Assembly (NCBI RefSeq): GCF_023330685.1
Contig: NZ_CP097128.1
Coordinates: forward strand, 558,001-622,000
DNA from: Conexibacter sp. DBS9H8
GTDB lineage: Bacteria > Actinomycetota > Thermoleophilia > Solirubrobacterales > Solirubrobacteraceae
Direction: 5' to 3'
Length of the DNA stretch: 64,000 nucleotides
The notes beneath the pieces are model-generated. The model ran no database searches. It saw nothing but the letters and a program-made list of their open reading frames with translations, and was not told where the DNA came from. Positions 10,586 through 11,615 of this stretch are shown piece after piece (position 1 is the first letter of the stretch; every line of letters starts with the position of its first letter). A program made the translations under genes and the position numbers.

Positions 10586-10635
10586 CTGGCGAAGGCTACG
10601 GCCTTAACGTCCGCCCGCCGATGCACACCCCCGGG

Positions 10636-10673
10636 AAAAGCTGAGGGGCGCCGTTCGACGGACGGCGCCCCTC
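10636..10673 (-). terminator. Strong intrinsic terminator of the RNA element
   Basis: GAGGGGCGCCGT and ACGGCGCCCCTC (10643-10654 and 10662-10673) form a perfect 12-bp stem with a 7-base loop. On the minus strand it is followed by AGCTTTTC, a short U tract, while the plus side has none. This fixes the direction as minus and places termination 50 bases before the oxygenase start. Confidence 0.7.
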
Positions 10674-10790
10674 ACCACACTGCTGACTGGAGACCGCGAT
10701 GACCCGTTGATGCCGGTGGGACGAGTCCCGGCAGCCACCGCGGCGGTGTCCCGGTTGGCCTCCGCTAAGGGAAGTCAGCCTGTTCCGGTC

Positions 10791-10835
10791 TTAGCGGCCG
10801 GACACCTCCAGGGTCCCATAACGACTGTCAGACAA
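10791..10835 (-). CDS. 14-codon micro-ORF inside the structured RNA
   Basis: A TTG codon at 10835 opens a frame reading MSDSRYGTLEVSGR and ending at TAA (10793-10791). It is preceded by AAAGGAGG, with GGAGG 10 bases upstream of the TTG, the best Shine-Dalgarno sequence seen in the window. The stop codon lies within the 5' strand of the 8-bp helix, so a translating ribosome would disrupt that helix. Whether the peptide is made, or the GGAGG has another role such as contacting 16S rRNA, is not known. Confidence 0.4.
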   Translation of the reverse strand: MSDSRYGTLEVSGR

Positions 10836-10867
10836 GATTGGACCACCTCCTTTCTCTGGTGAGATCA

Positions 10868-10896
10868 AGAATACAGGAGAGGCTGGACGAGACCAA
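10868..10896 (-). promoter_or_regulatory. Housekeeping-type promoter of the structured RNA
   Basis: On the minus strand TTGGTC (10896-10891) and TATTCT (10873-10868) are separated by exactly 17 bases, a good match to a primary sigma-factor promoter. The predicted start is near 10861. It lies more than 100 bases downstream of the HNH stop codon, so the RNA need not depend on HNH transcription. Confidence 0.6.
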
Positions 10897-10997
10897 ACCC
10901 GTCTCTCCCCCGCGAGGTCCGTCCTCTCCGCTTGAGCTGAACCGGCCGAGCGGGCGGGTGCCGGCAGGGCGCCTCGAGAGCGGACCCGGCGGCGGGC

Positions 10998-11615
10998 TCA
11001 GGCGGCACGCGCCGGAACGGGCGCGTGCGCGCCCTCGACGGCCCCGTGGTACATGTACTGGCGCCAGGCGACCGGGATCGTCGGGCTCGCGACGTGGATG
11101 AACACGTCCGGGCTGGGAGTGCGCGGTGGCCGGGCGAGCTGCATGTTCGCCTGCCGGGGCAGCAGGTCGCCCTTGCGGCGGTTGCATGGCGCGCAACTGG
11201 CGACGATGTTGTCCCAGCCCGACCCTCCCCCCTTGCTGCGCGGAATGACGTGATCGACGGTCAGTTGGCTGCGGGCGCCGCAGTACTGACACGTCCAGTT
11301 GTCCCGGGCGAACACGGCTCGGCGGGTGATCTTGCGCCGGTGCGCGTCCCGGGGGATCCGCACGTAGCTGACCAGGCGGATCACCGCCGGCCGCGACATC
11401 GACCCGTTCGCGGAGTGGAGCTCCCGCTCGGACCGCTCGATCACCTCCGCCTTCTCCTTCAGCAGCAGGACGATCGCACGACGGACGGTGCACACGTTGA
11501 CCGGTTCGTACGTGGCATTGAGGACGAGCACCCGACCCACATCAGATCCGTGCCGCTGGTGCTCAGAGAGCGGCCCGGACCCACCTGGTGCAGGTATCTC
11601 TGAGCCTGACCTCAT
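10998..11615 (-). CDS. HNH endonuclease family protein
   Basis: The 205-residue protein carries a complete HNH/McrA-type nuclease motif. CQYCG and CAPCN form the two zinc-binding CxxC pairs, with the catalytic DHVIPRSKGG and a following N in WDNIVASC. This protein type, with an N-terminal VLVLNATYEPVNV segment, is widespread in actinobacteria as a single gene. Its role is uncertain, though DNA nicking or binding is expected. The start is taken as ATG at 11615, with GAGG 5 bases upstream; an internal GTG at 11540 would begin closer to the conserved region. It follows pheA by 51 bases on the same strand. Confidence 0.9.
   Translation of the reverse strand: MRSGSEIPAPGGSGPLSEHQRHGSDVGRVLVLNATYEPVNVCTVRRAIVLLLKEKAEVIERSERELHSANGSMSRPAVIRLVSYVRIPRDAHRRKITRRAVFARDNWTCQYCGARSQLTVDHVIPRSKGGGSGWDNIVASCAPCNRRKGDLLPRQANMQLARPPRTPSPDVFIHVASPTIPVAWRQYMYHGAVEGAHAPVPARAA

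Follow-up and report, generated by a model that had tools for sequence, protein, structure and literature searches.

A divergent relative of the Ms_IGR-5 RNA in Conexibacter complements the full 16S rRNA tail, contains a pseudoknot and a conserved mini-ORF, and may capture or sense ribosomes

The window analyzed here, a 64,000-nucleotide stretch of the genome of Conexibacter sp. DBS9H8, contains an autonomous, structured RNA that forms a single unit from promoter to terminator, and which, judged by profile comparison, is a divergent relative of the known Rfam lineage Ms_IGR-5 (RF02471) and not an orphan. Its anatomy is plain in the sequence (Table 1), and from it we infer a translated RNA that captures or senses ribosomes, an interpretation to which we give about an even chance. 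Four of its features went unseen in an earlier, sequence-only reading of this DNA: a complement of the 16S rRNA 3' tail (SD1), a mini-ORF, a second SD ahead of the stop codon (SD2), and a pseudoknot.

Table 1. Features of the RNA locus, in window coordinates.
Feature	Position	Strand	Basis or remark
Whole RNA, ~225 nt	10636..10860	(-)	Predicted ends: 5' at ~10860, 3' past the terminator
-10 promoter element TATTCT	10868..10873	(-)	TANNNT at 12-13 nt 5' of the conserved end
Helix P1, 5' strand CCAG	10856..10859	(-)	Partner CTGG 10808-10811; 98.9% paired
SD1 AGAAAGGAGGTGGTCC	10840..10855	(-)	Complement of the entire 16S rRNA 3' tail GGATCACCTCCTTTCT, one G:U
Mini-ORF, 14 codons (TTG TCT GAC AGT CGT TAT GGG ACC CTG GAG GTG TCC GGC CGC TAA)	10791..10835	(-)	Conserved layout
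Pseudoknot strand GGGAC, within the ORF	10813..10817	(-)	Pairs with loop GTCCC
Helix P1, 3' strand CTGG	10808..10811	(-)	Covariation
SD2 GGAGGTG, inside the ORF	10803..10809	(-)	Stop 15 nt past its GAGGT
Helix P2 (outer), 5' strand GGTGTCC, overlapping SD2	10800..10806	(-)	Covariation
Inner helix, 5' strand CCGCTAAG, including the stop codon	10790..10797	(-)	Covariation
Inner helix, 3' strand CTTAGCGG	10762..10769	(-)	Covariation
Helix P2 (outer), 3' strand GGACACC	10745..10751	(-)	Covariation
Hairpin P3 GCCGG-loop-CCGGC, bearing the pseudoknot loop	10712..10732	(-)	96.9% paired; double changes in 5/5 pairs
Pseudoknot strand GTCCC, in the P3 loop	10718..10722	(-)	Compensatory pairs
Intrinsic terminator hairpin, 13-bp stem, then GCTTTT	10642..10674	(-)	Sequence and homologues

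The RNA occupies the gap between the HNH-endonuclease and nitronate-monooxygenase ORFs (10586-10997). That a structured intergenic RNA lies here on the minus strand, as the sequence-only reading had proposed, is borne out by comparative evidence, since a 271-base stretch is matched in 54 of 61 related genomes and the helices covary. Conservation sets in abruptly at ACC/ACCAGAG (10860), the predicted transcript start, and stops with the GC-rich terminator hairpin, and together these boundaries predict a transcript from ~10860 to ~10636. A conserved T/A-rich -10 element precedes the start of ACCAGAG conservation by 7-8 nt; among 63 order-level homologues, 43 have TANNNT at 12-13 nt ahead of the conserved 5' end, with a sharp information peak at that point. 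The sigma-70-type promoter suggested earlier holds for its -10 half, but the -35-like TTGGTC (10891-10896, minus strand) is weak, matching three of six consensus bases, and a consensus scan called neither promoter nor terminator. The terminator with its T tract is present as a strong hairpin in the place first assigned to it, and equivalent GC-rich hairpins close most homologues.

Neither neighboring gene offers a general explanation for the RNA. The start of the nitronate-monooxygenase gene lies ~50 nt beyond the terminator, which had raised the possibility of a regulatory leader; among 165 loci searched with tblastn, however, this gene adjoins the RNA in the window's own genome only, and a strong terminator intervenes, so that we regard a leader function as very improbable indeed. 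On the upstream side, the HNH-endonuclease gene (10998-11615) is found beside the RNA in 33 of the first 50 order-level loci, several of which are incomplete, and was not found next to it in loci from other families. A functional link between the two was therefore considered and rejected as not general. The genes gyrA and pheA are often near the HNH gene and RNA pair across much of the order.

The description of the RNA as uncharacterized stands insofar as no Rfam family, including raiA, Ms1/6S and the riboswitch families, reaches its gathering threshold anywhere in the window, and ARAGORN finds neither tRNA nor tmRNA there; it gives way at relaxed thresholds, where only Ms_IGR-5 and CC2171 (RF01867) emerge. 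The match to RF02471 scores 26.6 bits (E = 3.5e-4; gathering threshold 45). Used alone, the RF02471 model finds the RNA locus in 12 of 21 genomes, with none above 45 bits, and the locus is its top genome-wide match in the window's genome and in most of the relatives that match. Conversely, a model (R1) was built from 38 close relatives, and eight of the distant loci it found that were tested reach 50-176 bits with RF02471 at identical coordinates. Profile homology runs in both directions at matching coordinates, and the RNA shares covarying structure with RF02471 members in a joint alignment; it is thus a divergent branch of the Ms_IGR-5 lineage which the Rfam threshold excludes. R1 detects homologues in 63 of 149 genomes of the class and 96 of 297 of the phylum, and a broader model (R2) places the RNA in 156 of 397 sampled genomes of the phylum, nearly always as a single copy; the matches themselves indicate that this phylum is Actinomycetota. 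Some genera of the window's own order lack it, and the RNA is accordingly not essential everywhere. Ms_IGR-5 transcripts have been reported in M. smegmatis, S. lividans and S. avermitilis, and the ribosome footprints seen on its homologues, in M. abscessus as in M. smegmatis, are what translation would give (PMC4974804). The papers searched yielded neither a function for Ms_IGR-5 nor any sRNA that binds the 16S tail.

Evidence for the fold is comparative. Folding energy is unremarkable (z = -1.79) and weak as sole proof of structure; the case that structure exceeds chance comes instead from the joint alignment A2, which unites the window's kin with RF02471 members and in which P1, P2, the inner helix, P3 and the pseudoknot were assessed together across 92 homologues. 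Paired cells amount to 94.9%, against 32-47% when partners are slid, and cells changed on both sides number 344, against 79 in shuffles; double changes occur in 21 of 27 pairs. The outer helix and the perfect 8-bp inner helix, both first picked out from the sequence, lie exactly where they had been placed and are confirmed by double changes, and the second hairpin domain is recovered as the GCCGG/CCGGC hairpin P3. P1 pairs the first bases of the RNA (CCAG) with those directly ahead of SD2 (CUGG), and varies as CACG/CGTG, CGAC/GTCG, GCG/CGC and other double changes. Compensatory pairs in the pseudoknot between the ORF and the P3 loop include GTGAC/GTCAC, GCGAC/GTCGC, AGGAC/GTCCT and GGGAT/ATCCC. 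A further candidate helix, between the conserved UCCAG near the 3' end and CUGGA ahead of SD2, was discarded when its partners failed to co-change in other clades. As a separate observation, in one relative (L077/L039, G043:C1:347493-347745) repeats of GGCGGAACGTTGTCCCGCCGAGCACCGACCC expand the apical portion of the RNA and occur just upstream of it as well, as though the gene for the RNA had received the insertion of a repeat element.

In its RNA form, SD1 (AGAAAGGAGGUGGUCC) complements the whole 16S tail of the same genome, GGAUCACCUCCUUUCU, over 16 nt, and the predicted duplex is worth -27.8 kcal/mol, against -8.7 for plain GGAGG. Only two sites in the genome fall within one mismatch of SD1, namely the RNA itself and the antisense of the 16S end; no other non-rRNA match to the tail complement was found in this genome at that stringency. 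The conserved unpaired columns of the RNA are mostly those of SD1, and since nearly all of its strongly conserved unpaired bases face the ribosome, the partner is more likely to be the ribosome itself. One alternative is a standard sRNA that acts in trans by base pairing, in which the SD-like 5' end and the ORF would be incidental. Its own promoter and terminator, abundant hairpins, and the Rfam annotation as sRNA would all suit such a molecule, but beyond SD1 there is no other conserved, exposed seed, and the ORF is far above chance, which makes this account improbable.

Since the complementarity spans GGATCACCTCCTTTCT and ends at the expected mature 3' end, and 16 nt far exceeds what initiation needs, the RNA could alternatively serve as a monitor or decoy of the 16S 3' end, in which pairing with the complete mature tail would report on, or delay, ribosomes whose 30S subunits are finished, the ORF doing no more than help release. 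The equal length of the complement in alphaproteobacterial kin, described below, is in keeping with this. Further, GGTCC within SD1 can pair with GGACC in the ORF, such that 16S binding could free the pseudoknot strand; we do not retain this pairing, which is possible but nearly devoid of covariation, as its core is invariant. Tail pairing alone also leaves the fixed ORF stop and SD2 spacing unexplained, and we consider this explanation unlikely, if the least so of the alternatives.

The order SD1, mini-ORF, stop is retained in 140 of 141 distinct homologues, where shuffles lead one to expect ~11, and the distance from the GAGGT of SD2 to the stop is 15 nt in 120 of these 140 and 14 nt in the remaining 20. 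In the window, 8 nt separate the GAGG of SD2 from the last sense codon, which is also the commonest spacing between SD1 and the start codon. Start codons in the window's order are weak (61 loci: TTG 24, CTG 22, ATC 14, ATT 1; ATG and GTG never), and those outside the order include ATG and GTG. The stop is TAG in 117 of 140 homologues; incidentally, UAG or UAA, the codons read by release factor 1, together account for 124 of the 140, though with genomes this rich in GC one would expect UGA to be frequent. SD2 was also considered as the SD of a second gene, and rejected in this role as no ORF of at least 20 codons begins there in the 141 loci. SD-like sequences within genes do not always cause ribosome pausing. 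Moreover, helix P2 takes in both SD2 and the stop, and part of their fixed spacing could stem from RNA structure.

It might be argued that the locus is no more than an mRNA encoding a functional micropeptide of 14 amino acids, with RNA structure secondary. Besides the retention of the frame in 140 of 141 homologues, the peptides of the window's own order are nearly constant over GTLEV[x]GR, and a serine-aspartate-serine sequence after the start recurs in many clades, encoded from both serine codon families. The constant residues coincide, however, with nucleotides that P1, P2 and the pseudoknot constrain, and the peptides of distant clades have little in common except EV. Whereas most clades end in ..EVxxx-stop, two families read GGAGGTG in another frame (..SGGGSS and ..TGSGGTSG) and keep the stop in the same place, and the bases of SD2 are shifted in frame in Rhodobacteraceae too. 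Persistence of the ORF and its stop across two reading frames of SD2 means that these, and not the peptide, are what is conserved, and renders a micropeptide unlikely, a shade more so than a monitor of the 16S tail.

Under the capture or sensing model, then, SD1 would recruit a 30S subunit whose 16S end is complete, and the weak start combined with the long SD would make initiation slow or conditional; in S. aureus, extended SDs likewise accompany non-canonical start codons (PMC13009471). As P1, P2 and the pseudoknot are partly built of ORF sequence, they have to unfold when a ribosome occupies the ORF, and ribosome-bound and free RNA would be expected to fold differently. At the stop codon, the P-site codon would follow SD2 at a distance of 8 nt, as in an initiation complex, and SD2 may there grip the terminating ribosome. 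Such an RNA might serve as a trap or store of ribosomes, as a decoy, or as a sensor of ribosome state, all of which are compatible with the anatomy. Against the model, it leaves unexplained a conserved, unpaired UCCA-like motif near 10757-10762. Placed between the inner helix and P2, the motif shows strong conservation at equivalent positions throughout the phylum, with the versions GAAUCCAACC, GAGUCCAACC and GACUCCAACC elsewhere in the phylum and GGCCAACC in the window.

The same layout recurs in Alphaproteobacteria. A scan of genome contigs for AAAGGAGGTGATCCAGTGTC yielded at least 119 stretches, almost all alphaproteobacterial by title, and the RNAs concerned likewise have a short ORF and a terminator. 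Among ten such stretches compared with Rfam, four reach threshold, all with CC2171; others, such as those of Rhodobacteraceae and Bradyrhizobium, match no Rfam family at threshold. In 112 distinct sequences among the matches listed, the 16S tail is predicted to bind best at 12-19 nt ahead of the stop codon, with -6.4 kcal/mol against -3.1 in codon-shuffled controls, and the SD-like bases responsible fall in varying codon frames, including in Rhodobacteraceae. The window RNA, with its extended SD followed by a short ORF, shares this feature of CC2171 and scores 21.3 bits against the CC2171 model (gathering threshold 75); the best alphaproteobacterial score with R1 is 17.7 bits, and common descent, hence homology to the window RNA, is unproven. 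Only tentatively do we group the two as one ribosome-capturing class, in which a full 16S-tail complement would load the ribosome onto the mini-ORF, a second SD at initiation distance ahead of the stop would hold it, and the peptide would be irrelevant; this is possible, though we lean against it. Separately, the Rhodobacteraceae and Bradyrhizobium loci without an Rfam family at threshold (L168-L286, for example L201 and L190) combine an extended SD with a GTG mini-ORF (VSRxxLERGVGT..., VSYLKRCHLAGIAR), and in those of Rhodobacteraceae there is, in addition, CCCCACCTCC, a potential pairing partner of the SD.

Several consequences follow for how these RNAs are viewed. A phylum-wide family classed as 'non-coding' sRNA here carries the only full-length, non-rRNA complement of the 16S tail in its genome, together with a conserved mini-ORF and a pseudoknot, and the reading of Ms_IGR-5, and perhaps of CC2171 too, as non-coding is thereby corrected. 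Ribosome capture or sensing gives a testable hypothesis for mycobacteria and streptomycetes, where tools exist. It is probable that this little-studied family either acts on ribosomes or reports on them. If the RNA and its alphaproteobacterial look-alikes do form one class, its range would take in two phyla, and its role would be to store ribosomes or to sense their state. The RNA lineage itself is already known, and it is the mechanism that would be new, if confirmed: should the two-SD layout truly hold a ribosome at the stop codon, this would amount to a regulatory principle of which we know no prior description.

The RNA can be set beside several known systems. 6S RNA/Ms1, raiA RNA and tmRNA are plentiful, structured RNAs that associate with the machinery of transcription or translation, but in the window no Rfam family is matched at its gathering threshold and no tmRNA was found. 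The extended-SD sites of S. aureus share with it an extended SD beside a weak start and a small ORF, but these are mRNA or uORF sites that control a downstream gene, whereas the window RNA ends at its own terminator (PMC13009471). The Caulobacter sRNA CC2171 begins with GAAAGGAGGUGAUCC, a 16S-tail complement, followed by a short ORF and lastly a terminator, and in many of its relatives the stop is preceded, at 12-19 nt, by an SD-like stretch; the ORFs, however, are 14-33 codons long, and no helix is shown to be shared. The closest likeness is to Ms_IGR-5, which in the joint alignment has the same extended SD, the same ..EVxxx-stop ORF, P1 and P2, and the pseudoknot, although the printed RF02471 consensus marks no ORF, no P1 and no pseudoknot, and its short 5' helix differs from P1. 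Within that lineage, the window's order stands apart from other Ms_IGR-5 RNAs by its weak start codons and its own GTLEVxGR version of the peptide.
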